From Luscinia megarhynchos (taxonomy: Eukaryota > Chordata > Aves > Passeriformes > Turdidae): 64,000 nucleotides of DNA. Under the pieces are notes generated by a model, which was not told the DNA's origin, ran no database searches, and saw nothing but the letters and a program-made list of their open reading frames with translations. The stretch is taken from contig JAPFBE010000078.1 in NCBI GenBank assembly GCA_034336665.1, positions 62,001-126,000 of the forward strand, written 5' to 3'. Numbering within the stretch: position 1 is the stretch's first letter; the number at the start of each line of letters is the position of its first letter. Made by a program: the position numbers and the translations under genes. Below, in pieces: positions 1,215 through 24,666 of this stretch.

Positions 1215-4200
1215 GTACTGGTTTATACTGGTTTATACTGGTTTGTACTGGGAGGCGAAAAAACGGCGAAAAAACGGCGAAAAATGGAGAAAAAACGGGG
1301 AAAAAAGGGTTAAAAATGGGTTAAAAATGGGGGAGAAGTGGTGAGGAAAGGGTTAAAAGCGGGTGGAATGGGGAGCGGGGGTTACTGGTTTATACTGGTT
1401 TATACTGGTTTGTACTGGTTTGGGCTGGTTTGGGCTGGGAGGCGAAAAAACGGCGAAAAACGGCGAAAAAACGGGGAAAAAAGGGTTAAAAATGGGTTAA
1501 AAATGGGGGAGATGCGGCGAGGAAAGGGTTAAAAGGGAGTGGAATGGGCACTGGGGGTTACTGGTTTGTACTGGTCTATACTGGTTTATACTGGTTTGTA
1601 CTGGGAGGCGAAAAAACGGCGAAAAACGGCGAAAAATGGAGAAAAAACGGGGAAAAAAGGGTTAAAAATGGGTTAAAAATGGGGAGATGCGGCGAGGAAA
1701 GGGTTAAAAGCGGGTGGAATGGGGAGTGGGGGTTACTGGTTTATACTGGTTTATACTGGTTTATACTGGGAGGCGAAAAAACGGCGAAAAACGGGGAAAA
1801 AACGGCGAAAAAATGCCAAAAAACGGTTAAAAATGGGTTAAAAACGGGGGAGAAACGGTGAGGAAAGGGTTAAACGGGAGTGGAATGGGGAGTGGGGGTT
1901 ACTGGTTTGTACTGGTTTATACTGGTTTATACTGGTTTGTACTGGGAGGCGAAAAAATGGTGAAAAACTGGGAAAAAACGGGGAAAAAAGGGTTAAAAAT
2001 GGGAGAGGTGCGGTGAGGAAAGGGTTAAAAACGGGTGGAATGGAGACTGGGGGTTACTGGTTTGTACTGGTTTACACTGGTTTATACTGGTTTTGTACTG
2101 GGAGAGAAAAACCGGCCGAAAAGCGGGGAACAAGCGGGGGAAAAAGGGTTAAAAATGGGTTAAAAGGGGGAAGTGGTGAGGAAAGGGTTAAAAAAGGGTG
2201 GAATGGGGAGCGGGGGTTACTGGTTTGTACTGGTTTGTACTGGTTTATACTGGTTTATACTGGTTTATACTGGGAGGCTGAAAAAAGCGGCAGCAGTGGC
2301 AAAGCGGGGAAAAAAAGGGTTAAAAATGGGAGAGATGCGGTGAGGAAAGGGTTAAAAGCGGGTGGAATGGGGACTGGGTGTTACTGGTTTGTACTGGTTT
2401 ATACTGGTTTGGACTGGTTTATACTGGTTTCTACTGGGAGGCGAAAAAAACGGCGAAAAAACGGGGGAAAAAGGGTTAAAAATGGGGGAGAACTGGCCAG
2501 GAAAGGGTTAAAAAGGGTTAAACGGGGGTTACTGGTTTGTACTGGTTTATACTGGTTTGTACTGGTTTGAACTGGTTTGAACTGGCTTGGACTGGTTTGT
2601 ACTGGTTTGTAATGGTTTGAACTGGTTTGTACTGGTTTGGACTGGTTTGAACTGGTCCGTACTGGTTTCGACTGGTACATACTGGTTATACTGGTTTGGA
2701 CTGGTCCATACTGGTTCATACTGGTCCATAATGGTCCGTACTGGTCCATACTGGTCCGTACTGGTTTATACTGGTCCATACTGGTCCATACTGGTTTATA
2801 CCGGTCCATACTGGTCCATACTGGTCCGTACTGGTCCATACTGGTCCATACCGGTCCATGCTGGTCCATACTGGTCCATACTGGTCCATACTGGTTTATA
2901 CTGGTCCATACCGGTCCATACCGGTCCATACCGGTCCATGCTGGTCCATACTGGTTTATACTGGTTTATACTGGTTTATACTGGTTTATACGGTCCCTAC
3001 TGATCCACACAGGTCCATACTGGTTTATACTGGTCCATACTGGTTTATACCGGTCCATACCGGTCCATACTGGTCCATACCGGTCCATACTGGTCCATAC
3101 TGGTTTATACTGGTCCATACTGGTTGCAGGAACTTCCACGTGTGGAACGACTGCTGGATGAAGCGCCCGGATCTGCCCGACGGCTACGACGGGTGGCAGG
3201 TGGTGGACGCCACGCCCCAGGAGACCAGCAGCGGTACTGGTTCTTACTGGTTTATACTGGTTTATACTGGTTTATACTGGTTTATACTGGTTTTTACTGG
3301 TTTTTACTGTTTTTTGCTGGTTTGGGCTGGTTTGGGCTGGGAGGGAACTGGGAGGCGATTTTGGGGCGTTAAATTGTGAAAAATGGGGGGAAATTTTGGG
3401 GAATTTGGTACTGGTTTGTACTGGTTTGTACTAGTTTATACTGGTTTATACTGGTTTTTACTGGTTTATACTGGTTTTTACTGGTTTTTGCTGGTTTTTG
3501 CTGGTTTGGGCTGGGAGGGAACTGGGAGGGGATTTTGGGGCGCTAAATTGTGAAAAATGGGGGAAAATTTGGGGAGTTTGGTACTGGTTTGTACTGGTTT
3601 GTACTGGTTTATACTGGTTTATACTGGTTTTTATTGGTTTTTACTGGTTTATACTGGTTTTTACTGGTTTTTACTGGTTTTTACTGGTTTTTGCTGGTTT
3701 GGGCTGGGAGGGAACTGGGAGGGGATTTTGGGGCGTTAAATTGAGAAAAATGGGGGGAAATTTTGGGGAATTTGGTACTGGTTTGTACTGGTTTATACTG
3801 GTTTGTACTGGTTTGTACTGGTTTGGGTAATGGGTGGTGCTGGTTTGTACTGGGAGGGAACTGGGATAAACTGGGAGGGACTGGGAGGGGATTTTGAGGT
3901 TTTTAAAGGGTTAAAAATGGGGAAAAGTTGGGGATTATTTTACTGGTCTGTACTGGTTTATACTGGTCCATACTGGTCCATACTGGTCTATACCGGTCCA
4001 TACTCGTCCATACTGCTTTATACTGGATTATACTGGTTTATACTGGTTTATACTGGTTTATACTGGTTTATACTGGTTTATACTGGTTTACACAGGACCA
4101 TACTCGTTTATACTGGTCCATACTGGTCTGTACAGGTCCATACTGGTCCATACTGGTCCATACCGGTTTATACTGGTCCATACCGGTCCATACTGGTCCA

Positions 4201-7200
4201 TACTGGTCCATACCGGTCCATACCGGTTCATACCGGTCCATACCGGTCCATACTGGTTTATACTGGTTTATACTGGTTTATACTGGTTTATACTGGTTTA
4301 TACTGGTCTGTACTGGATTATACTGGTTTATACTGGTTTATACTGGTCCATACCGGTCCGTACTGGTCCATACTGGTCCGTACTGGTTTCCCAGGGCTGT
4401 TCTGCTGCGGGCCCTGCTCCGTCACGGCCGTCAGGAACGGGGAGGTTTTCCTCAAGTACGACACGCCCTTCGTCTTCGCCGAGGTTAATTACCCTCATTA
4501 ATTACCCTAATTACCTTAATGAGCTTCATTTGCTTAATGAGCTCCATGAGCTTAATGAGCTTCATTACCTTAATTGCCTTAATTACCTTAATTACCTTCA
4601 TTAGCTTCATGAGCTTAATGAGCTTAATGAGCTTCATTACCTTAATTGCCTTAATTACCTTAATTACCTTAATTTTCTTAGTTACCTTCATTACCTTAAT
4701 TACCTTAATTACCTACATTATCTTAATTACCTTTATTTTCTTAATTACGTTCATTACCTTATTTATCTTAATTACCTTAATTACCTTCATTACCTTCATT
4801 ACCTTCATTACCTTAATTATCTAAATTACCTTAATTATCTTAATTACCTTAATTACTTTCATTACCTTCATTAGCTTCATGAGCTTAATGAGCTTAATGT
4901 GCTTAATCACCTTTATTGGCTTAATGAGCTTCATGAGCTTAATTACCTTCATTACCTTTATTAGCTTAATTACCTTAATTAGATTCCTTAGCTTAATTAC
5001 CTTAATTAGCTTCATTACCTTAATCACCTTCATTAGCTTAATCACCTTAATTACCATAATCTGCTTAATTACCCTAATAGCCTTAATTACCTTAGTTACC
5101 TTAATTAGTTTAATTACCTTCATTACCTTAATGAGTTTAATGAGCTTAATCACCTTCATTACCTTAATGAGCTTCATTACCTTAATTACCTTCATTACCT
5201 TAATCATCTTAATTACCTTAATTTGCTTCATTACCTTAATTACCTTAATTACCTTAATTACCTTAATTACCTTAATTACCTACATTATCTTAATTACCTT
5301 TATTTTCTTAATTACGTTCATTACCTTATTTATCTTAATTACCTTAATTACCTTAATTACCTTCATTACCTTCATTACCTTCATTACCTTCATTAGCTTC
5401 ATTATCTAAATTACCTTAATTATCTTAATTACCTTAATTACCTTCATTACCTTCATTACCTTCATTACCTTAATTTGCTTAATTACCTTAATCACCTTAA
5501 TGAGTTTAATGCGCTTAATTACCTTCATTACCTTAATTACCCTAATTTCCTTAATTACCTTCATTACCTTAATGAGCTTAATGAGCTTCATTACCTTAAG
5601 TACCCTAATTACCTTAATTGCCATAATGAGCTTAATAGGTTTAATTACATTAATTACCTTAATTACCTTTATTAGCTTAATGAGCTTAATAACCTTAATT
5701 ACCTTAATTACCTTAATGAACTTAATGAGCTTAACTTCATTACTTAGCTTAATTAGCTAAAATACCTTAATTAGCTTAATTAGCTTAATTATATTAGTTA
5801 CCTTAATTAGCTTAATTACCTTTATCAGCTTAATTACCTTAATTACCTTAAATAGCTTAATTACCGTCATTACCTTAATTACCTTCATCACCTTAATTAG
5901 CTTAATTACCTTCTTTCCCTTAATTACCTTAATTACCTTAAGTACCTTCATTAGCTTAATTACCTTCGTTACCTTCATTACTTTCATTACCGTCATTACC
6001 TTAATTGGCATAACGAGCTGTCAATCACACCGCTAACCGTGCCGTTAATTAACCATTAATTAATAATTATTAGTGAAGAATTAGTGATTAATAATTAAGC
6101 CGTAACTAATTGTGCTGATAGGAATTAATTACTTTTAATTATCAGGCTAATTAATGATTGCAATTAGCGCGATTAATTATGCAAAGGAGCCGCTGAACCA
6201 ACAGGAGCAGTGCCTAGTAAAGCATTAATTGTGCTCATTAATAACTAATTAATCAATAATTATTAATTAGTGATTAATTAATTAATAGGTTAATAGCGAT
6301 AAGGTACAGCCCCCTTGGGAATCGCCATTATTAACAGAAATTGGGATTTAATAACCCTAATTACGAAGACGCAATTAATCTGTTATCAGTCATTAATTTA
6401 AAAATCAATCAATAAATAAATCAATTAGTATTAATAAGTAATTAATGAACAGGTGAACAGCGACAAGGGGCACTGGCAGCGGCAGCGCACGGGGGATAAC
6501 ACATTAGTTAATTAATGAACAGAAACCCAAATTACAAGCTGGAATCTGTTATTAATCATTAATAAATTGATGATTATTAATTATTAATAAATAATTAATA
6601 ATTAGTTAATTAATTAATAGGTGAACAGCGACAAGGTGTACTGGCAGCGGCAGGCGCACGGCGGGTGGCACAGATAGGATTTAATAACCCTATAACAATG
6701 CAGAGTGACTCTATTATCAATAATTAATGATTAATAAATTGGTGATTATTAATTAATAATTAATTAATAATTAATTAATAGGTGAACAGCGACAAGGTGT
6801 ACTGGCAGCGGCGGCGCACGGCGGGATAACACATTGATAACTATTAACCCTTATAACAATGCATTATCAATCCATTATCAATCACTAATCATTAATAAAT
6901 TGGTGATTATTAATTAATAATTAATTAATGATTAATAATTACCAGGTCAATAGTGACAAGGTGTACTGGCAGCGGCAGGCGCACGGCGGGATAACACATT
7001 GATAACTATTAACCCATATAACAATCCATTATTAATCACTAATAACAATATAATTGATGATTATTAATAAATAATTAATAATTAATTAGTGATTAATAAT
7101 TAATAGGTCAATAATGACAAGGGACACTGGCAGCGGCAGCGCACGGCGGGATAACACATTGATAACTATTAACCCTTGTAACAATCCATTATTAATCACT

Positions 7201-10200
7201 AATAACAGCATAATTAATGATTATTAATTATTAATTAATAATTAATTAATGATTAATTAACAGGTCAATAGCGACAAGGTGTACTGGCAGCGGCAGGCGC
7301 ACGGCGGGATTACACATTGATGAATTAATGAACAATAACCCAAATTACAAGCTGGAATATGTTATTAATCAGTAATTAATCGATGATTATTAATAATTAA
7401 TAATTAATTAATGATTAATAATTACCAGGTGAACAGCGACAAGGTGTACTGGCAGCGGCAGGCACGCGGTGGGTAGCACAGATAGGATTTAATAACCCTA
7501 TAACAATCCATTATTAATCACTAATAACAATATAATTAATGATTATTAATTAGTAATTAATAATTAATAATTAATTAATTACCAGGTGAACAGCGACAAG
7601 GTGTACTGGCAGCGGCAGCGCACGGCGGGATAACACATTGATGAATTAATGAACAATAACCCAAATTACAAGCTGGAATCTGTTATTAATCATTAATAAA
7701 TTGATGATAATTAATAATTAATAATTAATTAGTGATTAATTAATAGGTCAATAGCGACAAGGGGTGTACTGGCAGCGGCAGCGCACGGCGGGATAACACA
7801 TTGATAACTATTAACCCTTATAACAATCCAGAATTAATCCATTATTAATCACTAATAACATAATTAATAATTAATAATTATTAATTAATAATTAATTATT
7901 TAATAGGTGAACAGCGACAAGGTGTACTGGCAGCGGCAGGCGCACGGTGGGATAACAGATTAGTTAATTAATGAACAATAACCCAAATTACAAGCTGGAA
8001 TCTGTTATTAATCATTAATAAATTGATGATTATTAATTAATCATTAATTAATCATTAATAATTAATAGGTGAACAGCGACAAGGTGCACTGGCAGCGGCA
8101 GGCGCACGGGGGATAACAGATTAATAAATTAAAGATTAATAACCCTTATAACAATCTAGAATTGAGCTATTATTAATCACGAATAATAAAATAATTAATA
8201 ATTAATAAATAATTAATAATTAATTAGTGATTAATTAATAGGTGAACAGCGACAAGGTGTACTGGCAGCGGCAGGCGCACGGGGATAACACATTGATAAC
8301 TATTAACCCTTATAACAATGCATTATCAATCCATTATCAATCACTAATCATTAATAAATTGATGATTATTAATTAATAATTATTAATTAATGATTAATAA
8401 TTAATAGGTGAACAGCGACAAGGTGTACTGGCAGCGGCAGGCGCACGGCGGGTGGCACAGATAGGATTTAATAACCCTATAACAATGCAAAGTGACTCTA
8501 TTATCAATAATTAATGATTAATAAATTGATGATTATTAATTAATAATTAATAATTAATGATTAATAATTAATAGGTGAACAGCGACAAGGTGTACTGGCA
8601 GCGGCAGGCGCACGGCGGGTTAACACATTAGTTAATTAATGAACAGAAACCCAAATTACAAGCTGGAATCTGTTATTAATCATTAATAAGTTATTAATTA
8701 ATAATTAATGATTAATAATTAATTAATTAATAGGTCAATAGTGACAAGGTGTACTGGCAGCGGCAGCGCACGGCGGGATAACACATTGATAACTATTAAC
8801 CCTTATAACAATCCAGAATTAATCCATTATTAATCACTAATAACATAATTAATAATTAATAATTAATAATTAATTAGTGATTAATTACCAGGTGAACAGC
8901 GACAAGGTGTACTGGCAGCGGCAGGCGCACGGCGGGTAGCACAGATAGGATTTAATAACCCTATAACAATGCAAAGTGACCCTATTATCAATGATTGATC
9001 ATTAATAAATTAATGATTATTATTAATTAATAATTAATGATTAATAATTAATTAATTACCAGGTCAATAGCGACAAGGTGTACTGGCAGCGGCAGGCGCA
9101 CGGCGGGTTCTCGGTGGTGCACGTGGAGCCCGGCGCCATCGGCCGCAGGATCAGCACGCAGGGCCCGGGCGCCGCCAGGGTGGACATCACTGACCAGTAC
9201 AAACACCCCGAGGGTGAGTGACCAACTGACCACTGAGTGACCAGTGAGTGACCAGTGAGTGACCACTGACATCACTGACCAGTACAAACATCCCGAGGGT
9301 GAGTGACCAGTGAGTGACCAACTGACCAACTGACCACTGAGTGACCACTGAGTGACCACTGACATCACTGACCAGTACAAACACCCCGAGGGTGAGTGAC
9401 CAACTGACCACTGACATCACTGACCAGTACAAGTACCCCGAGGGTGAGTGACCAGTGAGTGACCAGTGAGTGACCAGTGAGTGACCACTGAGTGACCAGT
9501 GAGCACTGACATCACTGACCAGTACAAGTACCCTGAGGGTGAGTGACCAACTGACCAGTGAGTGACCAGTGAGTGACCAGTGAGTGACCAGTGAGTGACC
9601 AGTGACATCACTGACATCACTGACATCACTGACCAGTACAAACACCCCGAGGGTGAGTGACCAGTGAGTGACCACTGAGTGACCAGTGAGTGACCAACTG
9701 ACCAACTGACCACTGAGTGACCACTGAGTGACCAGTGACATCACTGACCAGTACAAACATCCGGAGGGTGAGTGACCAACTGACCACTGAGTGACCAGTG
9801 AGTGACCAGTGACATCACTGACCAGTACAAACACCCCGAGGGTGAGTGACCAGTGAGTGACCAGTGAGTGACCAGTGAGTGACCACTGAGTGACCACTGA
9901 GTGACCAGTGAGCACTGACATCACTGACCAGTACAAGTACCCTGAGGGTGAGTGACCAACTGACCAGTGAGTGACCAGTGAGTGACCAGTGAGTGACCAA
10001 CTGACCACTGAGTGACCACTGAGTGACCAGTGACATCACTGACCAGTACAAACACCCCGAGGGTGAGTGACCAGTGAGTGACCAACTGACCACTGAGTGA
10101 CCAGTGAGTGACCAACTGACCACTGAGTGACCAGTGAGCACTGACATCACTGACCAGTACAAACACCCCGAGGGTGAGTGACCAGTGAGTGACCAACTGA

Positions 10201-13200
10201 CCAGTGAGTGACCAGTGAGTGACCAGTGACATCACTGACCAGTACAAACACCCCGAGGGTGAGTGACCAGTGAGTGACCAACTGACCAGTGAGTGACCAA
10301 CTGACCAGTGAGTGACCACTGACATCACTGACATCACTGACCAGTACAAACATCCCGAGGGTGAGTGACCAGTGAGTGACCAGTGAGTGACCAGTGACCA
10401 GTGACATCACTGACATCACTGACCAGTACAAGTACCCTGAGGGTGAGTGACCAGTGAGTGACCAACTGACCAGTGACATCACTGACATCACTGACCAGTA
10501 CAAACATCCGGAGGGTGAGTGACCACTGAGTGACCACTGAGTGACCACTGAGTGACCACTGAGTGACCACTGAGTGACCAGTGACCACTGACATCACTGA
10601 CCAGTACAAGTACCCGGAGGGTGAGTGACCACTGAGTGACCACTGAGTGACCGCTGAGTGACCACTGAGTGACCACTGAGTGACCAGTGAGTGACCAGTG
10701 AGTGACCAACTGACCAGTGAGTGACCACTGAGTGACCACTGAGTGACCACTGAGTGACCACTGAGTGACCACTGACATCACTGACATCACTGACCAGTAC
10801 AAACACCCCGAGGGTGAGTGACCATGAGTGACCAACTGACCACTGAGTGACCAGTGACCACTGACATCACTGACCAGTACAAACATCCCGAGGGTGAGTG
10901 ACCAGTGACCATTGAGTGACCACTGAGTGACCACTGACACCACTGACCACTGACCGCTGAGTGACCCCTGAGTCAGCACCATGGCTCTTGACCCCTTGAC
11001 CAATGACCCAACCAATGACCAATGACCAACCATTGACCAATGACCCAACCAATGACCAGTGACCCAACCAATGACCAATGACCCAACCAATGACCAGTGA
11101 CCCAACTCTTGACCAATGACCGATGACCCAACCAATGACCAATGACCCAACCACTGACCAATGACCCAACCAATGACCAATGACCCAACCAATGACCAAT
11201 GACCCAACCAATGACCAGTGACCCAACTCTTGACCAATGACCGATGACCCAACCAATGACCAGTGACCCAACCATTGACCATTGACCCAAATCATTGACC
11301 ATTGACCAAACCAATGACCAAAGACCCAACTCTTGATCCAACCACTGACCAATGACCCAACCCTTGACCAATGACCCAACCAATGACCAATGACCCAACC
11401 AATGACCAGTGACCCAACCAATGACCAGTGACCCAACTCTTGACCCCTTGACCCAACCGTTGACCATTGACCAATGACCCCTTTACCCAACCACTGACCA
11501 ATGACCCAACCAATGACCCCTTGACCCAACTCTTGACCCCTTGACCCAACTCTTGACCCAGCCCTTGACCAATGACCCAACTCTTGATTCAAACCATTTG
11601 CAATGACCCTAAACCTGAACCCAACCATTGACCAATGACCCAACCATTGACCCAACTCTTGACCCAACCAATGACCGATGACCCAACCAATGACCCCTTG
11701 ACCCAACCATTGACCATTGACCCAAATCATTGACCATTGACCCAAACCAATGACCAAAGACCCAACTCTTGACCCAGCTCTTGACCAATGACCCAACTCT
11801 TGACCAATGACCCAACCCTTGACCAATGACCCAACCCTTGACCCAACTCTTGACCAATCACCCAACTCTTGACCCAACCAATGACCAATGACCCAACCAT
11901 TGACCAGTGACCCAACTCTTGACCCCTTGACGCAAACCAATGACCAAAGACCCAACCATTCACCAATGACCCAACTCTTGACCCTTTGACCCAAACCTCA
12001 ACCCAACCAATGACCAATGACCAATGACCCAACCCTTGACCCAACCAATGACCAATGACCCAACTTGACCCCTTGACCCAACCCTTGACCCAACCATTGA
12101 CCAATGACCCAACTCTTGACCCAACCAATGACCAATGACCCAACTTGACCCCCTTGACCCAACTCTTGACTCCAACCAATGACCATTGACCCAACCATGA
12201 CCATTGACCCAACCCTTGACCCAACGTATGACCAGTGACCCAACCATTGACCAATGACCAACCATTGACCAATGACACAACTCTTGACCCCTTGACCCAA
12301 CTCTTGACCCAACCAATGACCAATGACCCAACCATTGACCAATGACCCAACCCTTGACCAATGACCCAAGCATTGACCAATGACCCAAATCCAATGACCC
12401 TTTGACCCAACTCTTGATTCAACCATTGGCCAATGACCCAAACCTGAGCCCAACCAATGACTGATGACCCAACTCTTGACCCAACCAATGACCAATGACC
12501 CAAGTAATGACTGATGACTCCAACTCTTGACCCAACCAATGACTGACCCAAGTCTTGACCCAACCATTGACCATTGACCCAAACCAATGACCAATGACAC
12601 AACTCTTGACCCCTTGACCCAACTCTTGACCCAACCATTGACCAATGACCCAACCATTGACCAATGACCCAAACCTGAACCCAACCAACGACCAATGACT
12701 CCAACCCTTGACCCTCGCGACCTCACCCGAGGGACTCCCTCCTCCCCCTCAAGAGGCTCGAGGAGGAGCTCGCCACTGCCTCCACCGCCACCTCTCGCTC
12801 CCCACTGGGCCACGCCGGGCGCCGCCGGGGCTGAGGTGTCGCTGACCCTCGTGTCGGGCTCGCCGGGCGTGGCGCCGAGCTGGAGCTGCAGGGCGGCGCT
12901 CAGGAACGCTGCCCTACGCCACAAGACTGCTGCTGCTGCGCCGCTCGCTGCCGGCGCTACACCGGCGGGTCGGGCCCGCTTCCGCCAGGAGCAGCACCCC
13001 ACGCACGCCACGCCGGGGCAGGTGAGGGCCCGGCGGGACTGGGAGGGACTGGGAGGACTGGGAGGGGAAAAATGGGAAAAATGGGGAAAATCGGGTGGAA
13101 AAATGGGTGAAATGTGGGGAAAAAAGGGAAAAGAAAGGGTTAAAAGAGTTAAAAAGGGTTAAAGGGGTTTGGGGTTACTGGTTTGTACTGGGATGGGACT

Positions 13201-16200: not shown

Positions 16201-18475
16201 TACCGCTTCCATACCGGTCCATACCCGGTTTATTCCGGCCTCCATACCGGTCCATACCGCCCATACCAGTCCATACGAAAGTCCATACCGTCCATCCCGG
16301 TTTATTCCGCTCCATACCGGTCCATACTGGTTTATACTGGTCTGTACTGGTTTATACCGGTCCATACCGCTTCCATACCGGTCCATACCGGTCCATACCG
16401 GGTCCATACCGGTCCATACCGGTCCATACCAGTCCATACCGCTCCATACCGCTCCATACCGCTCCACACCGGTCCATACCCCGGTTTATTCCGCTCCATA
16501 CCGGTCCATACTGGTTTATACCGCTCCATCCCGCCTCCATCCCGTTCACCCCCGCTACCCCCCGCAGAGGACGCCGCGTCAGCTGGCCGTGTGCCCTACG
16601 CCGAGTACCAGCCGCATCGCCGGCGACCAGGACGCTGCCCGCTGACGGCGGTCGGGCGCCTGCAGGAGACGGGCCAGGTGCTGGCCAAGGAGCTGCTGGT
16701 GCGGCTGCAAGACGCTCGAAGCTGGCGCTGACGGTAACGGGCTCGCCCCGAGCGCCCAAAGGGAGTGGGGATGCCGAAAATTTGGGTGGGTGGGTGGTTG
16801 GGTAGAGCTGGTGTTGATAAATCGACGTAGGGTTTGATTGGTAGAGCTGGTGTCTGTAAATCCCTATATTGTTTAATTGGTAAACCTGATGTCTCTCTAT
16901 ATAAAAACAGGTTGACCTGGTGTCGCTAAATCTCCATAGTATTTAATTGGTAGACCTGGTGTCAATAATCTCCATAGGGTTTAATTGGTAGACCTGGTGT
17001 CTCTAAATTTCCATAGGGTTTAATTGGTAGACCTGGTGTCTGTAAATCCCCATAGAGTTTAATTGATAGACCTGATGTCTCTATATAAAAACAGGTTGAC
17101 CTGGTATCCCAAAGTATAGTTTAATTGGTAGATCTGGTGTCACTAAATCCCCATAGGGTTTGATTGGTAGATCTGGTGTCACTAAATCTCCGTAGGGTTT
17201 AATTGGCAGACCTGGTGTCTGTGTTTAGTACGTTGACCTGGTGTCCCTAAGCATCCTTAGTGTTTAATTGGTAGACCTGGTGTCACTAAATCTACATAGG
17301 GATTAATTGGTAGACCTGGTGTCACTAAATCTACATAGGGATTAATTGGTAGACCTGGTGTCTCTATGTTTAACAGGTTGACCTGGTGTCACTAAATCCC
17401 CGTAGTATTTAATTGGTAGACCTGGTGTCACTAAATCTCCGTAGGGTTTAATTGGTAGACCTGGTTTCTGTGTTTAGTAGGTTGACCTGGTGTCCCTAAG
17501 TATCCTTAGTGTTTAATTGGTAGACCTGGTGTCACTAAATGTACATAGGGTTTAGTTGGTAGACCTGGTGTCTCTAAATTTCCATAGGGTTTAATTGGTA
17601 GACCTGGTGTCTCTCTCTATATATAAAAAAGGATGACCTGGTGTCCCTAAGCATCTGTAGTTTAATTGGTAGATCTGGTGTCGTTAAATCTCCATAGGGT
17701 TTAATTGGTAGACCTGGTGTCTCTAAATTTCCATAGGGATTTATTGGTAGACCTGGTGTCTCTGTTTAACAGGTAGACCTGGTGTCTCTGAGTCTCCATA
17801 GGGTTTAATTGGTAGACCTGGTGTCTCTATATAAAAACAGGTTGACCTGGTGTCCCTAAGTATGTGTTAAATTGGTAGACCTGGTGTCTCTAAATCTCCT
17901 TAGTGTTTAATTGGTAGACCTGGTGTCTCTCTCTATATGTTTAACAGATTGACCTGGTGTCTCTAAATCCCCATAGGGTTTAATTGGTAGACCTGATGTC
18001 TCTGAGTCTCCATAGGATTTAATTGGTAGACCTGATGTCTCTATATAAAAACAGGTTGACCTGGTATCCCAAAGTATAGTTTAATTGGTAGATCTGGTGT
18101 CACTAAATCTCCATACGGTTTAATTGGTAGACCTGGTGTCACTAAATCCCCGTAGGGTTTAATTGGCAGACCTGGTGTCTGTGTTTAGTAGCTTGGCCTG
18201 GTGTCCCTAAGTATCCTTAGTGTTTAATTGGTAGACCTGGTGTCTAAATCTCCTTAGGGTTTAATTGGTAGACCTGTTGTCTCTCTCTATATATAAAAAA
18301 GGTTGACCTGGTGTACCAAAGCATCCATAGTTTAATTGGTAGACCTGGTGGCTCTGAGTCTCCATAGGGTTTAATTGGTAGACCTGGTGTCTCTAAATCT
18401 CCATAGGGATTAATTGGTAGATCTGGTGTCGTTAAATCTCCATAGGGTTTAATTGGTAGACCTGGTGTGTCTCTC

Positions 18476-19161: not shown

Positions 19162-22100
19162 GCTTAACAGGTTGACCTGGTGTCCCTAAGCATCCATAGT
19201 TTGATTGGTAGACCTGGTGTCTCTGACTCTCCATAGAGTTTATTGGTAGACCTGGTGTCACTAAATCCCCATAGGGATTTATTGGTAGACCTGGTGTCTG
19301 TGCTTAGTAGGTTGACCTGGTGTCCCTAAGTATCAGTGTTTAATTGGTAGATCTGGTGTCACTAAATCTCCATAGGGATTAATTGGTAGACCTGGTGTCT
19401 CTGAATCTCCGTAGGGTTTAATTGGTAGACCTGATGTCTCTATATAAAAACAGGTTGACCTGGTATCCCAAAGTATAGTTTAATTGGTAGATCTGGTGTC
19501 ACTAAATCCCCATAGAGTTTAATTGGTAGACCTGGTGTTGCTAAATCCCCGTAGGGTTTAATTGGCAGACCTGGTGTCTGTGTTTAGTACGTTGACCTGG
19601 TGTCCCTAAGTATCCTTAGTGTTTAATTGGTAGACCTGGTGTCACTAAATCTACATAGGGATTAATTGGTAGACCTGGTGTCTCTAAATTTCCATAGGGT
19701 TTAATTGGTAGACCTGGTGTCTCTAAATCTCCATAGGGTTTAATTGATAGACCTGATGTCTCTATATAAAAACAGGTTGACCTGGTATCCCAAAGTATAG
19801 TTTAATTGGTAGATCTGGTGTCTCTAAATCTCCGTAGGGTTTAGTTGGTAGACCTGGTGTCTCTCTCTATAGATAAAAAAGGTTGACCTGGTGTCCCTAA
19901 GCATCCATAGTTTAATTGGTAGATCTGGTGTCACTAAATCCCCATAGGGATTAATTGGTAAACCTGGTATCAGTAAATCCCTATATTGTTCAATTGGTAG
20001 ACCTGGTGTCAGTAAATCTCCATAGGGTTTAATAGATAGACCTGGTGTCCCTAAATCCCCAGTGTTTAATTGGTACACCTGATGTCCAAAATCTCTAGTG
20101 TTGAATTGCTAGACCTGGTGCCCTTACATTTACATAGCATTCAATTGGTAAATCTGGTGTCCCCAAGTGCTTCAAGCAATTAACGGGTAGACCTGGTGTC
20201 CCTATAATCTCCATTTAATTTGTAGATTTGGTATCCCTGAATCATCCCTGTTAACAACTAGATCTGGTCTCCCTAAACCCTTTCAATGGGGTAGACCTGG
20301 TGTCCTTAAATCCTCCTTTATTTCAATGGGTAGATCTGGTGTCCCCGAAATCCCCATTTACCTCTATGGGGTAGACCTGGTGTCCCGAAATCCCCATTTA
20401 CTTCTATGGGGTAGACCTGGTGTCCCGAAATCCCCATTTACTTCTATGGGGTAGACCTGGTGTCCTTAAATCCCCATTTACTTCTATGGGGTAGACCTGG
20501 TGTCCTTAAATCCCCATTTACTTCTATGGGGTAGACCTGGTGTCCTTAAATCCCCCATTTACTTCTATGGGGTAAGACCTGGTGCCCCGAAATCCCCATT
20601 TACTTCTATGGGGTAGACCTGGTGTCCTTAAATCCCCATTTACCTCTATGGGGAAGACCTGGTGCCCTTAAATCCCCATTTACTTCTATGGGGTAGACCT
20701 GGTGTCCCAAAATCCCCATTTACTTTTATTGGGTAGACCTGGTGTCCTTAAATCCCCATTTACCTCTATGGGGTAGACCTGGTGTCCTTAAATCCCCATT
20801 TACTTCTATGGGGTAGACCTGGTGTCCCGAAATCCCCATTTACTTCTATGGGGTAGACCTGGTGTCCTTAAATCTCAGTGTTTAATTAGTAGACTTGGTG
20901 TCCCTAAATCTCAGTGTTTAATTAGTAGACCTGGTGTCCCTAAATCTCAGTGTTTAATTAGTAGACTTGGTGTCCCTAAATCTCAGTGTTTAAATGGTAG
21001 ATGTGGAAAATCTAAACTCCCCAGTGTTTCATTGGGAGACCGGGTGTTCCTATTGATATTGTTTAATTGGGAGACCTTGTGTCCCTAAATTTCCATCGTT
21101 AAATTGGTAGACCTGGTGTCCTTAAATCCCCATTTACTTCTATGGGTAGACCTGGTGCCCCTCAAATCCCCATTTACTTCTATGGGGGTAGACCTGGTGC
21201 CCCTAAATCCCCATTTACCTCTATGGGGTAGACCTGATGTCCCAAAATCTCCATTTACCTCTATGGGGGTAGACCTGGTGTCCTTAAATCCCCATTTACT
21301 TCTATGGGGTAGACCTGGTGTCCCGAAATCCCCATTTACTTCTATGGGGGTAGACCTGGTGTCCTTAAATCTCCATTTACTTCTATGGGGTAGACCTGGT
21401 GCCCCGAAATCCCCATTTACCTCTATGGGGTAGACCTGGTGTCCTTAAATCCCCATTTACTTCTATGGGGTAGACCTGGTGCCCCGAAATCCCCATTTAC
21501 CTCTATGGGGGTAGACCTGGTGTCCGGAGTATTTTGGGTCCAAAACCGCCGATTTTGGGTCCAAATCCCTCGATTTCTGCGCTAAAAATCGTCATTTTTG
21601 GGGTAACCCCGCTCATTTTGGGCTCAAAATCACCAATTTGGGGTGGAACCCGAGAATTTGGTGGAGGGAAGTGGCATTTTGTGGGGTGAAGAAGGTGAAA
21701 AATGAGGATTTGCGGGGATAAAAAGTGGGATTTTTGGGTTAAAAAACGGGATTTTTTTGGGGTAAAAACGCGAATTTTGCGGTTTTGGGGGTGAAACTCG
21801 CGGATTTTGGTGTCACAAGAGCTGCTGGGCCCGCGCTGGTGGGACAGGAGGTTCCCTGCAGGTGGTTTTCCAGAATCCTCTCGCCCAAAGCTCTGAGCTG
21901 CGCCCCCGCGCATGGAGGGCAGCCGATCGCCTGCCCCAAACCCGCGCAGCGCTGGGGTGAGCCCGACTGGGAGGCACTGGGTTATACTGGGAGGGACTGG
22001 GAGGGGGAGAAACGGGGAGAAACGGTGAAAAAATGGTGAAAATCGGGTGAAAAATGGGGAAATATGGGGGAAATGGGTTAAAAAAGGGTTAAAAAGGGTT

Positions 22101-24666
22101 AAAAATGGGTTAAAAGGAGTTTGGGGTTACTGGTTTATACTGGTTTATACTGGGAGGGAACTGGGGTGGACTGGGAGGAGGAAAATGGGGGGAAAAGGTG
22201 AAAAAATGGTGAAAATCGGGTGAAAAATGGGGGAAATATGGGGGAAATAGGGTTAAAAAAGGGTTAAAAATGGGATAAAAGGGGATTTGGGGTTACTGGT
22301 TTGTACTGGTTTGTACTGGGAGGGACTGGGAGGCAACTGGGGTGGACTGGGAGGGACTGGGAGAGGGAGAAAGCGGTGAAAATCGGGTGAAAAATGGGGA
22401 AAATATGGGGAAAAAAGGGTTAAAAAAGGGTTAAAAAAGGGTTAAAAAGGGAATTTGGGGTTACTGGTTTGTACTGGTTTATACTGGGAGGGAACTGGGG
22501 TGGACTGGGAGGGACTGGGAGGGGGAGAAAACGAGGAGAAACGGGTGAAAAAATGGTGAAAATCGGGTGAAAAATGGGGAAATATTGGGAAAAAAAGGGT
22601 TAAAAAAGGGTTAAAAATGGGTTAAAAGGGGATTTGGGGTTACTGGTTTGTACTGGGAGGGAACTGGGAGGGAACAGGGAGGGACTGGGAGGGACTGGGA
22701 GGAGGAAAATGGGGAGAAAAGGTGAAAAAATGGTGAAAATCGGGTGAAAAATGGGGAAAATAGGGTTAAAAAAGGGTTAAAAAGGGTTAAAAAGGGGTTA
22801 AATGGGATTTGGGGTTACTGGTTTATACTGGTTTATACTGGGAGGGAACTGGGGTGGACTGGGAGGGACTGGGAGGGGGAGAAACGGAGAGAAACGGTGA
22901 AAAAATGGTGAAAATCGGGTGAAAAATGGGGAAAATATGGGGGAAAAAAGGGTTAAAAAGGGTTAAAAATGGGTTAAATGGGATTTGGGGTTACTGGTTT
23001 GTACTGGGAGGGAACTGGGAGGGAACTGGGAGGGACTGGGAGGGACTGGGGGGGTTACCGGGAGGGGTTTTAGGCCTTACTGGGATGAACTGGTTGATAC
23101 TGGGAGGGACTGGGAGGGGGGGAATTTGGGGAAAAAATTGGAAATTTTTCATTCTGGTTCATACTGGTTTATACTGGTTTATACTGGTTCATACTGGTTT
23201 ATACTGGTCTATACTGGTCTATACTGTTTATACCAGTCTGTACTGGTTTATACCGGTCCATACTGGTTCATACTGGTCCATACCAGTCCATACTGGTCCA
23301 TACTGGTTTATACCGGTTTATACCGGTTCATACTGGTTTATACTGGTTTATACTGGTTTATACTGGTTTATACTGGTTTATACTGGTTTATACTGGTCTA
23401 TACCAGTCTGTACTGGTTTATACCGGTCCATACTGGTTCATACTGGTCCATACCAGTCCATACTGGTCCATACTGTTTTATACCGGTTTATAGCGGTTCA
23501 TACTGGTTTATACTGGTTTATACTGGTTTATACTGGTTCATACTGGTCCATACTGGTTTATACTGGTCTATACTGTTTATACCAGTCTGTACTGGTTCAT
23601 ACCGGTCCATACTGGTTTATACTGGTTCATACCGTTTTATACTGTTTTATACGGGTTCATACTGGTTCCTACTGGTTCATACTGGTTTATACTGGTTGCA
23701 GCTCGGTGGGGGCGGGGCAGACGCTCCGCCTCAGCCAATCGGTGACGCCGCTGCGCGCGGGGCGGCGCCGCCTGGTGGCGGCGCTGGAGAGCAGCGCCCT
23801 GCCCCCCCTGCACGGCGAGCTCCAGTTCGAGGCGCAAACTGGGAGCGCTGGGAGCGCTGGGAGCGCGGGGAGCGGGGGAGGGGCAGGAAGGAGGAGGAGG
23901 GCAGGCCCGGGGGAGCACGGGGGGGTGAGGGGGACTGGGAGGGACTGGGAGGGACTGGGGGGACTGGGAGGGAACTGGGAGGGACTGGGATCAAAACTGG
24001 GATCAAACTGGGAGGGACTGGGAGGGCTGGGAGGGACTGGGAGGGACTGGGAGGGACTGGGATCAAACTGGGAGGGACTGGGAGGGACTGGGGGGGAACT
24101 GGGAGGGACTGGGGAGGGAGGGGACTGGGAGGGACTGGGAGGGAACTGGGATGGACTGGGACTGTGGACTAGGGGAGGGACTGGGAGGGACTGGGAGGGA
24201 CTGGGAGGGACTGAGACGGGAGGGAACTGGGAGGGACTGGGAGGGACTGGGAGGGACTGGGGGGGACTGGGATGGACTGGGAGGGACTGGGATGGAATGG
24301 GATCAAACTGGGAGGGACTGGGAGGGACTGGGAGGGACTGGGATGGACTGGGAGGGAACTGGGAGGGACTGGAATGGGATCAAACTGGGAGGGACTGGGA
24401 TCAAACTGGGAGGGACTGGGATGGGGTTTGGGTCATACTGGGAGCACTGGGAGGGGTCACTGGTCCATACTGGGAGAACACTGGGAGCCGTTACTGGTCC
24501 ATACTGGGAGAACTGGGAGCGGTCACTGGTCCATACTGGTCCCATACTGGGAGAGCACTTGTGGGTAACTGGGAGCGCTGGGAGCCGTTACTGGTTTATA
24601 CTGGGAGCACTGGGAGGGTCACTGGTCCATACTGGGAGCAGGACCGCCCCAGTCTCCCCTCCGTGA
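1076..24666 (+). CDS. TGM1: TGM1, protein-glutamine gamma-glutamyltransferase K, 3' part (nine probable exons)
   Basis: Calcium-dependent transglutaminase that forms glutamyl-lysine isopeptide cross-links, at the inner face of the keratinocyte membrane in mammals. Seen here, in order: the calcium-site segment ([12 protein letters not shown]), the catalytic His (NFHVWND) and Asp ([10 protein letters not shown]), the FCCGPCSV segment, the end of the core ([17 protein letters not shown]), then the two C-terminal beta-barrels ([35 protein letters not shown]). The wording [11 protein letters not shown] and [12 protein letters not shown] is that of TGM1 rather than TGM2, TGM3 or F13A1. The exon with the active-site Cys and everything N-terminal lies left of the window. 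Exons at 12754, 16568 and 21820 need frame changes to be read, while the others are open. Introns are wholly tandem repeats. The next gene, TINF2, starts about 160 bp after the poly(A) signal. Identity is secure; whether the frame breaks are biological or consensus errors is open. Confidence 0.92.
1215..3127. repeat. ~165-bp composite repeat followed by 10-bp minisatellite (TGM1 intron)
   Basis: From 1215 to about 2530 there are eight units of 150-176 bp. Each is made of an ACTGGTTT block, a purine block (aaaaaacggcgaaaaa), a gggttaaaaatgggtt block and a gtggaatgggga block. From about 2530 to 3127 only the 10-bp ACTGGT unit remains. Confidence 0.9.
3130..3233 (+). CDS. TGM1: TGM1 exon: catalytic His and Asp
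   Basis: This 104-nt exon reads [18 protein letters not shown], then [16 protein letters not shown]. The His of NFHVW and the Asp of VVDATPQE are the second and third members of the transglutaminase Cys-His-Asp triad. The acceptor is tggttgcag and the donor is G|GTACTGG, itself a unit of the ACTGGT minisatellite. The frame is intact. Confidence 0.95.
3234..4390. repeat. Composite repeat (~180 bp) and 10-bp minisatellite (TGM1 intron)
   Basis: Units begin near 3233, 3406, 3580 and 3774 with ACTGGTTTTT blocks, gggctgggagggaactggga and a ggaaattttgggg block. A pure ACTGGT 10-bp array occupies about 3940-4390. Confidence 0.9.
4395..4483 (+). CDS. TGM1: TGM1 exon: FCCGPCSV segment
   Basis: Open frame [20 protein letters not shown], then [10 protein letters not shown], colinear with the core-domain segment that follows the catalytic Asp in transglutaminases. 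The acceptor is gtttcccag. The donor GTTAAT is weak and is directly the first unit of the TTAATTACC array that fills the next 1.5 kb. Confidence 0.93.
4484..6010. repeat. TTAATTACC / TTCATTACC array (TGM1 intron)
   Basis: A 1.5-kb array of 6-12 bp units (ttaattacc, ttcattacc, ttaatgagc). Its first unit is the splice donor itself. A segment of about 130 bp near 4700-4830 is repeated almost exactly near 5265-5410 (acctacattatcttaatt and following), indicating a recent ~570-bp duplication. The Met/Ile/Leu- and Lys/Val-rich open frames it gives are repeat artefacts. Confidence 0.9.
6011..6286. repeat. AT-rich leader of the exon-fragment satellite
   Basis: Non-periodic AT-rich sequence with many ttaat words leading into the 163-bp satellite. 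No gene seen. Confidence 0.6.
6287..9062. repeat. 163-bp satellite carrying the acceptor and first 45 nt of the next TGM1 exon
   Basis: Exon-like cores start near 6291 (degenerate), 6451, 6619, 6780, 6944, 7105, 7261, 7427, 7584, 7745, 7905, 8068, 8240, 8406, 8573, 8732 and 8890, with spacing of 156-172 bp. Each has AG then gtgaacagcgacaaggtgta and continues through ctggcagcggcaggcgcacg. The following AT-rich spacer comes in at least three versions (gataacacattgataac; ggcacagataggattt; acattagttaattaatg) in irregular order. Several copies lack one G (cggcagcgcac), which would shift the frame. Confidence 0.95.
9063..9213 (+). CDS. TGM1: TGM1 exon: end of catalytic core, both ends amplified in the flanking introns
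   Basis: Open frame beginning [20 protein letters not shown] and ending with [14 protein letters not shown]. The acceptor is ttaattaccag and the donor is G|GTGAGT. The first ~45 nt and the acceptor are repeated about 17 times upstream (6.29-8.93 kb). The last ~30 nt and the donor are repeated about 17 times downstream (9.27-10.89 kb). Only this copy contains the middle part ([16 protein letters not shown]), which identifies it as the true exon. Confidence 0.92.
9214..10895. repeat. Satellite carrying the last ~30 nt and donor of the TGM1 exon
   Basis: About 17 copies of gacatcactgaccagtac plus aaacaccccgag and ggtgagt, starting near 9270, 9361, 9413, 9508, 9622, 9737, 9811, 9917, 10032, 10143, 10228, 10330, 10412, 10485, 10590, 10779 and 10863. 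They are separated by runs of gtgaccagtga / gtgaccactga, so GTGAGTGACC, a consensus splice donor, recurs very many times. Confidence 0.95.
10896..12715. repeat. TGACCCAACCAA array (TGM1 intron)
   Basis: Units of 8-16 bp of the type ccaatgacccaaccaatgac and ccaactcttgacc. It appears to grade out of the gtgacca units to its left. It gives long Trp/Val/Gly/Ser open frames on the minus strand, which are artefacts. Confidence 0.9.
12754..13021 (+). CDS. TGM1: TGM1 exon: linker and first C-terminal beta-barrel, frame-broken
   Basis: The acceptor follows a pyrimidine tract (ctccccctcaag) and the donor is CAG|GTGAGG. TGM1-like pieces occur in order but in different frames: [10 protein letters not shown], then [12 protein letters not shown], then YTGGSG, then [13 protein letters not shown]. 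At least two or three small indels are needed to join them. The boundaries, especially the start, are approximate. The exon is either damaged or carries consensus errors in GC-rich sequence. Confidence 0.7.
13022..15004. repeat. ~170-bp composite repeat (TGM1 intron)
   Basis: About eleven units of 149-198 bp: ttactggtttgtactggga, several gggactgggag words, a ggggaaaaatggtgaaaatc block and aaagggttaaaaagggtt. Clearly the same family as 21960-23130 and related to 1215-2530. Confidence 0.9.
15005..16560. repeat. 10-bp ACTGGT/ACCGGT minisatellite (TGM1 intron)
   Basis: About 150 copies drifting from atactggttt on the left to ataccggtcc and ataccgctcc on the right. 11- and 9-bp units are present near 16140-16480. 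Confidence 0.95.
16568..16733 (+). CDS. TGM1: TGM1 exon: first C-terminal beta-barrel, frame-broken
   Basis: The acceptor is accccccgcag and the donor is ACG|GTAACG. It reads VPYAEYQPH, then in another frame AGDQDAAR, then again [20 protein letters not shown] and RLQDA, and finally KLALT in a third frame. These match successive TGM1 segments (VAYKEYRPH, VSGHVKESGQVLAK, LSLTL). At least three small indels separate them within 166 nt. Confidence 0.8.
18466..18531. repeat. (CT)n(TA)n microsatellite
   Basis: A run of CT dinucleotides followed by TA dinucleotides inside the 39-bp array, apparently expanded from the tctctctctatata of one unit. Confidence 0.95.
19100..19161. repeat. (TC)n(TA)n microsatellite
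   Basis: A second TC then TA dinucleotide run at the homologous position of another unit of the same array. Confidence 0.95.
21521..21819. other. Non-repetitive G-rich intron end
   Basis: Words such as ggattttgggtccaaaa recur loosely, but there is no clear period and no gene. It precedes the TGM1 exon at 21820. Confidence 0.5.
21820..21956 (+). CDS. TGM1: TGM1 exon: second C-terminal beta-barrel, frame-broken
   Basis: It reads LVGQEV in one frame, QVVFQNPL in the next and MEGSR in the third. All three correspond in order to TGM1 (VVGQECEVQIVFKNPL ... RLEGSGL). The donor is GG|GTGAGC. The start is either after AAG at 21819 or after AG at 21821. The upstream 300 bp are G-rich and not tandemly repeated. 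Confidence 0.7.
21957..23700. repeat. ~165-bp composite repeat and 10-bp minisatellite (TGM1 intron)
   Basis: Seven composite units to about 23130, of the same family as 13022-15004. They are followed by the 10-bp ACTGGT minisatellite, within which a block of about 190 bp (near 23160-23350) is repeated almost exactly near 23340-23540. Confidence 0.9.
23702..23924 (+). CDS. TGM1: TGM1 exon: last beta-barrel and Gly/Ser/Arg-rich tail
   Basis: The acceptor is actggttgcag. The open frame gives [20 protein letters not shown], then [20 protein letters not shown] and QFEAQ, the C-terminal strand region of TGM1. After this the frame runs into [14 protein letters not shown], encoded by a short repeat (ctgggagcg) that resembles the ACTGGGA minisatellite of the following intron. 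The donor at GGG|GTGAGG (23924) is a best guess. Confidence 0.85.
23925..24641. repeat. ACTGGGA minisatellite (TGM1 intron)
   Basis: Units of 10-12 bp (actgggaggg, actgggatcaa, actgggatgg). Many stretches have four or more GGG runs with loops of 1-5 bases, i.e. canonical G-quadruplex motifs on the coding strand. Confidence 0.95.
24642..24666 (+). CDS. TGM1: Possible last TGM1 exon
   Basis: Between the end of the minisatellite (actgggagcag, a usable acceptor) and the poly(A) signal there is a short stretch. It reads TAPVSPP then TGA if entered one base in, or continues to the TAA within AATAAA if entered in the other phase. Its position fits a short terminal exon, but there is no conserved sequence to confirm it. 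Confidence 0.35.

Follow-up and report, generated by a model that had tools for sequence, protein, structure and literature searches.

Both ends of one TGM1 exon stuttered into the flanking introns of a passerine-like bird, with arrays probably re-copied from the selected exon

How can an exon keep its protein when both of its ends have been copied, many times over, into the introns on either side? The question is raised by a stretch of 64,000 nucleotides (nt) from a passerine-like bird (here called the window; all coordinates are window positions), which forms part of contig C996 (181 kb). On its plus strand, exon d of TGM1 (9063..9213; 151 nt, an open frame of 51 residues, with acceptor ATTAATTACCAG and donor GTGAGTGACC) stands between two tandem arrays derived from its own edges. 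On protein identity the gene is a passerine-like TGM1 (transglutaminase K): exons a to d join in frame and are 92 to 95% identical to the seven best of 2099 matches (120 listed), all of them passerine and named protein-glutamine gamma-glutamyltransferase K, which is TGM1. The best matches of exon d in a PDB search are to transglutaminase E, and a Pfam search with exon d alone gave no match. The answer that we rank first, and consider likely, is that this is exon stuttering in which the arrays are recurrently re-copied, by exchange with the source exon, from an exon that is itself under selection.

The downstream array has as its source the last 31 exon bases (9183..9213), comprising 10 codons and the first base of a Gly codon. 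A pattern scan that permitted up to 9 edits, and found 0 to 3, matched GACATCACTGACCAGTACAAACACCCCGAGG followed by GTGAGT 18 times on the plus strand, once at the exon (9183) and 17 times as extra copies (9268-10899). These start at 9268, 9361, 9413, 9508, 9622, 9737, 9811, 9917, 10032, 10143, 10228, 10330, 10412, 10484, 10590, 10783, and 10863. The minus strand of the window held no match, and four shuffles of each of the two exon-edge patterns matched nothing. The array occupies 9214..10972 on the plus strand, with 11-mers of GTGAGTGACCA type between the copies. All 17 copies have an indel-free exon part and an intact GAGG/GTGAGT junction (the slash marks the exon border), each of the 18 donors is directly followed by GTGAGTGA, and GTGAGT occurs 51 times within 9214-10972. 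The preliminary description of this locus had reported about 17 copies of the last ~30 exon bases with their donor, as complete modules in an intron with very many GTGAGT donors, and these counts are confirmed; its estimate of ~90-110 nt for the repeats was too narrow, the spacing being 52-193 nt. A second, purely intronic array of TGACCAATGACCCAACC type (10973..12753, plus strand) fills the remaining intron.

The upstream array is built from the first 45 exon bases (9063..9107) and contains, by pattern scan, 16 extra copies of these bases with their acceptor (6450..9062, plus strand; exon parts starting from 6453 to 8892). The copies span 6450-8936 at a spacing of 157-173 nt, a unit of about 160 nt; all 16 keep the AG, and the pattern had no match on the minus strand of the window. 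By their intron parts the units form several families, down to 61% alike over the whole unit, and their exon parts are near-identical. A candidate decayed exon-start remnant lies at the distal end (6286..6307, plus strand; expect value [E] 0.057 with the exon model), in a region (6235-6307) that reaches E 5e-10 with the whole-unit model. The exon middle (9108..9182) is in neither array, and its tested 68 nt (9113-9180) match nowhere else in the window at up to 20 edits, in keeping with the earlier picture of a single-copy middle whose two ends have spread outward as separate arrays. As an observation in its own right, the intron before exon d opens on its donor side as a 1.5-kb array of the 9-mer TTAATTACC (4484..6006, plus strand), the donor itself being GTTAATTACC, and ends in TTAATTACCAG (9052-9062); the sites at its two ends, donor and acceptor, resemble units of a single repeat.

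Exon stuttering has been described as a phenomenon of avian dot chromosomes and published without a settled mechanism (Hron et al. 2026, PMC12954441; cited throughout from its main text). We applied the thresholds of that screen (blastn-short, length of at least 20, at least 42.1 bits) on the plus strand only and without the paper's RepeatMasker and multi-source filters. The 25 window exons gave 14 upstream and 13 downstream hits, every one from exon d and located in the introns on either side of it; three shuffled-intron controls gave none at the same thresholds. Each array's source extends to the exon border and includes the splice site, the intron is mostly tandem repeat, and the intron after exon d differs in length between two presumed alleles (3540 nt in the window versus 5969 nt on a second contig, C370). 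The locus is a case of exon stuttering, a class already in print (PMC12954441).

C370 (1-91618, 92 kb), a separate contig, was found by a search of the same assembly (1.09 Gb, 1235 contigs). It bears both arrays, with 44 extra downstream copies versus 17 in the window. Its upstream array comprises 14 copies by scan, all with the AG kept, and one garbled copy that the scan missed, and the contig ends inside this array. Exon order is identical over the compared 47.6 kb. The 17 compared exons split into 9 with 98.8-100% identity and 8 with 82-96% identity and many gaps; TGM1 exon h is identical at 130 of 130 nt, and TINF2 exons 2 and 3 at 100%. Fifteen of the 16 intervals differ in length. On the simplest reading C370 is probably the other haplotype; alternatively, it may be a paralog or a germline-restricted copy. 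Frame breaks hit different exons: e, f, and g are broken in the window, where d is open, and e, f, and g are open in C370. On these grounds we rejected the idea of a TGM1 pseudogene, which the breaks in e to g might suggest; the gene is probably intact and the breaks are probably consensus errors. NEDD8 exon 3 (37588-37668) also shows indels between the contigs, and its window copy is frame-broken when set against what we take to be the NEDD8 sequence.

Unit-by-unit comparison places the copy number change of the downstream array beside the exon. The nine window units farthest from the exon, W09 to W17, are collinear with C36 to C44 of C370 at 90-100% each, and from where the last copy begins the two contigs agree at every base for 159 nt. 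The exon-side units (8 in the window, 35 in C370) show scattered matches only. Since the distal nine are collinear and the proximal units scattered, the 27 additional copies of C370 fall on the exon-facing side. Between the last copy and exon e, the purely intronic stretch differs less (1891 nt in the window versus 2111 nt in C370). In the upstream array, W03 to W07 match C02 to C06 in order (85-95%) and the middle is rearranged. Length change in this one contig pair is therefore concentrated on the exon side downstream and mixed upstream, and clean polarity, considered for both arrays, was kept for the downstream array and dropped for the upstream one because upstream units W15 and W16 are orthologous to C13 and C14. 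No exon-side bias of large indels was seen in other introns between the contigs.

The upstream array carries a trace of a different kind. The unit attached to the exon in the window is nearest to two internal units of C370, C09 (96%) and C12 (95%), and a unit tree joins it to C09 with an ultrafast bootstrap support of 96. The exon-attached unit of C370 (C16EX) is nearest to W16 (88%) and C14 (87%). At least the last 20 intron bases of C16EX are common to W16 and C14, and its exon start (GTCAATAGT) is common to C09 and C12; similarly, C15 ends its intron part as the window's exon-attached unit does and continues with another exon start. Such unit mosaics are what would be expected if array members, and the exon with them, had undergone exchange. 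Because the intron end that adjoins the exon comes from one unit family in the window and from another in C370, the working acceptor appears to have been swapped for an array copy; the joint of the exchange lies near the acceptor.

Divergence within the units points the same way. Among the 16 upstream window units, mean pairwise substitution is 0.057 in exon columns versus 0.224 in intron columns. We counted substitutions against the window exon in the 16 window copies and 10 of the 15 C370 copies upstream and in 17 and 44 copies downstream. The exon-derived parts hold 16 distinct substitutions, 10 of which are synonymous (6/10 upstream, 4/6 downstream); mutation models expect 19-33% (P from 0.0001 to 0.016, depending on the model). 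Noncoding copies this rich in synonymous change argue for repeated descent from a coding copy. Nonsynonymous variants upstream are found mainly in the distal-side copies at 6453 and 7107. The commonest amino-acid variant, H to Y downstream, occurs in 5 of 17 window copies and 8 of 44 in C370, and the Lonchura exon itself has Y at this site; the 33 best matches have H in 31 cases and Y in one (Lonchura), the motif being absent from one, and the 120 listed matches have H in 84, Y in 12, P in 1, and no motif in 23. A comparison of the exon base in AGC/AGT with its array frequency was dropped for having too few cases (upstream, AGT is present in 2 of the 16 window copies, with one more AAT, and in 5 of the 10 counted from C370).

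The rival that survives best, which we rank second and regard as unlikely, is neutral slippage: a duplication across each exon border, then drift, with no later exchange with the exon. It would readily give the tandem order, the single strand, and the purely local spread, and the 10-nt exon-end word ACTGACCAGT (9189-9198), with 7 occurrences in the intron beyond the exon-derived pieces, offers a ready slippage register. These repeats could explain the register of duplication and might equally derive from the exon. Under neutral duplication, however, the exon and intron parts of a unit should drift alike, contrary to the divergences given above; the synonymous excess also counts against it, as does the finding that the unit next to the exon is of a different family on each contig.

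Several observations weigh against re-copying from the exon and are best seen together. The comparison covers two contigs and is one of sequence. C16EX groups with W16, C14, C15, and W10 at a weak ultrafast bootstrap support of 65, although the intron tails of the two exon-attached units are visibly different. Upstream polarity is unclean, as W15 and W16, which adjoin the exon, are orthologous to C13 (99%) and C14 (95%), and downstream W14 and W16 match other units as well as or better than their collinear partners. The last 12 intron columns of the upstream units diverge by just 0.108, and the AT-rich intron part of these units is difficult to align. Sixteen variants, some at CpG, underlie the synonymous excess. 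Exon-part indels occur upstream in 8 of 16 window copies and in 4 of the 10 counted from C370, and downstream in 11 of 44 from C370; they represent either decay or sequencing error, and individual copies are not maintained. On C370, exon d is garbled in its middle (84% identity, 10 gaps, no stop). Base-level consensus errors are likely in both contigs, in some GC-rich exons, and for that reason substitution counts are safer than indel counts.

We postulate that recurrent re-copying from the selected exon would proceed as follows. Two minisatellites would have arisen by tandem duplication of units straddling the 3' and 5' boundaries of one TGM1 exon. Unequal exchange or gene conversion would then remodel the arrays, with the exon-attached unit drawn in through the 31-45 nt of homology between exon and units. 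After any exchange involving the exon, a functional acceptor, a functional donor, and the correct frame would all have to remain. As exchange must leave a working exon, only good copies would survive there, and the surviving copies would then be copied outward. The array would thereby become a partly decayed record of past exon-end states, together with a pool of spare acceptors and donors. No function of the array in its own right is demonstrable. More tentatively, breaks or recombination in or beside the GC-rich exon may rebuild both arrays from the exon-attached unit, exchanging the acceptor and the coding edge; we hold this to be possible and do not commit ourselves to it.

The preliminary description had suggested that splice-junction DNA itself seeds tandem duplication. 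Both arrays do include a splice site, and more than 90% of the copied sources in the published set end within 1 base of an exon border (PMC12954441). Moreover, in the 10 kb before the window, just outside it, another TGM1 exon (VNSLDDSG...) has one extra copy of its first 24 bases and acceptor (C996:61248-61271), about 330 bases ahead of the exon and at 100% identity (48.1 bits, which passes the threshold); the Onychostruthus TGM1 protein record has this exon repeated three times. We surveyed the 25 window exons, a partial set that leaves out the first NEDD8 exon and probably several IPO4 exons, and took 48 of their 50 edges as splice edges. The two edges of exon d alone were copied, and the other 46 had no copies in the window. 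Across 20 introns, the 10-mer at the intron end had a mean repeat percentile of 0.23 for donors and 0.09 for acceptors, so that most splice-site words are rare in their introns; clear exceptions are two highly repeated donor words, that of exon a at 0.98 and that of exon d at 0.91, with another three donors at 0.46-0.57. Copies that reach the border are also what selection alone would leave, because duplications wholly within an exon would break the protein. As a general rule, seeding by splice junctions is not borne out, and we consider it very improbable here.

Just as improbable, in our estimation, is that the arrays are kept for a purpose, as decoy donors and acceptors tuning TGM1 splicing or regulated nonsense-mediated decay. 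Such a role would accord with the intact splice dinucleotides of the examined copies and with the early stops that alternative sites give. Read-through past donor 1 yields ...HPEGE-stop, and all later donors inherit this stop because it comes directly after donor 1; upstream, 16 of 16 acceptors hit a stop within 16-45 codons. The earlier proposal that downstream donors would add near-exact repeats to the mRNA fails on the same stop, whichever later donor is chosen. Since the other choices tested give an early stop, the innermost acceptor-donor pair is expected to be the one used by the spliceosome, and the downstream donors and upstream acceptors are predicted to be silent or to feed decay. 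Copy numbers of 17 versus 44 within one assembly argue against a tuned function, and re-copying of the exon already explains the intact sites.

An assembly artefact, with arrays inflated by error-prone long-read consensus, could be suspected from the exon indels on both contigs (at different exons) and from the shortness of these contigs (181 and 92 kb), and is scarcely credible in view of both arrays on two contigs with shared distal units at 90-100%, a ground tit protein model that repeats the same exon, and the chicken PHF8 array, whose structure was confirmed by raw nanopore reads (PMC12954441).

That ground tit (Pseudopodoces humilis) model, a predicted TGM1, repeats exon d as a second copy of its end from GRRIST, a VSVS joint, and then the whole exon again. 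In this protein model the breakpoint differs from that of the 31-nt piece here, and VSVS would fit a GTGAGT repeat. Exon d thus appears to be unstable in another passerine too, with a history of its own, if the model is taken at face value.

The remaining TGM1 exons of the window, all on the plus strand, are not stuttered: a (1076-1214), b (3130-3233), c (4395-4483), e (12754-13021), f (16568-16733), g (21820-21956), and h (23702-23831). Exon borders were placed by eye from AG/GT and open frames; they are uncertain for e, f, and g, which have indels relative to the open C370 copies, and for NEDD8 exon 3, and one IPO4 exon end was set one base early. Exon h is followed in both contigs by GC, not GT, at 23832 (GAG/GCGCAAAC), possibly marking a GC-AG intron or a misplaced exon end. 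The introns after exons a and b (1215-3129 and 3234-4394) carry a TACTGGTTTA-type 10-mer that starts in the donor itself (GTACTGGTTT). In Passerculus, Geospiza, and Motacilla, protein models apparently run on into a repeat of TACTGGTTTA type, which may be common to several passerines.

Farther along the window are plus-strand exons of TINF2 (PDB 5xyf, E 1.5e-9; Pfam TINF2_N), NEDD8, and IPO4 (PDB 7unk, E 2.7e-33). The interval between two listed IPO4 exons is 2292 nt in the window versus 874 nt in C370. Tandem Repeats Finder masks 82.7% of the window as tandem repeat, and many GC-rich single-copy islands are exons. The order TGM1-TINF2-NEDD8-IPO4 is presumably that of a human chromosome 14 segment whose counterpart in birds is a dot chromosome. 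This gene row and the repeat density fit a dot chromosome; contig C996 is unplaced.

We suggest, from the sequence comparisons, that what is new at this locus is mechanistic evidence for a known class: a two-ended case, exon-side turnover, and an apparently exchanged acceptor. It is an unusually readable case, with two arrays round one exon, two contigs, shared and unshared parts, and an acceptor that seems visibly exchanged, and it shows that an exon inside a very unstable repeat can keep its protein. Other genes on the pair of contigs can likewise be compared unit by unit, and the model of exchange with the source exon becomes testable with a few long reads. If that model is true, splice sites and exon edges on dot chromosomes are in concerted evolution with intronic copies, and selection acts solely on the copy attached to the exon. 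A practical warning also follows: gene models in such introns, the ground tit record for example, can hold false repeats.

New introns can be created by tandem duplication of AGGT sites. The arrays here resemble that process in that a tandem duplication crossing the exon border makes new splice-site pairs, and differ from it in that existing introns are lengthened and no new intron is shown. A second comparison is with human hypervariable minisatellites such as MS32, which have a mutationally active end near a recombination hotspot. Like those of PMC2599865, the arrays have imperfect tandem units, length variation between presumed alleles and, in the downstream array of this one contig pair, change at one end, a polarity that was not significant for MSY1 in that source. 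Unlike them, the unit here includes coding exon and a splice site, which places the active end under coding selection.

The closest relatives are the stuttered exons of Hron et al. (PMC12954441). That paper discusses a G-quadruplex (G4) idea; here, G4 motifs (four runs of at least three G) number 0 on either strand of both arrays versus 3.8 per kb in the window, so we rejected G4 as the driver at this locus, a result at odds, for this case, with that idea. The words "polarity" and "synonymous" are absent from its main text. A literature search, with most subscription journals and preprints outside it, returned no two-ended case, no exon-side turnover, no exchange of a working acceptor, and no second paper with the term exon stuttering. 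As in Hron et al. (PMC12954441), an edge portion of a coding exon, together with its donor or acceptor, recurs in imperfect tandem through the adjacent intron, and the introns are nearly all tandem repeat with strong length variation. The exon pieces of 31 and 45 nt fall within the published 20-187 (median, 36), and the 17 and 44 extra downstream copies compare with a range of 1-44 (median, 4). In contrast to the published chicken cases, the bird here is passerine-like and both ends of one exon are stuttered. Two sequence-resolved contigs here also allow a unit-by-unit comparison that brings out exon-side turnover downstream and an acceptor that seems to have been exchanged, neither of which we met in the passages of PMC12954441 consulted.

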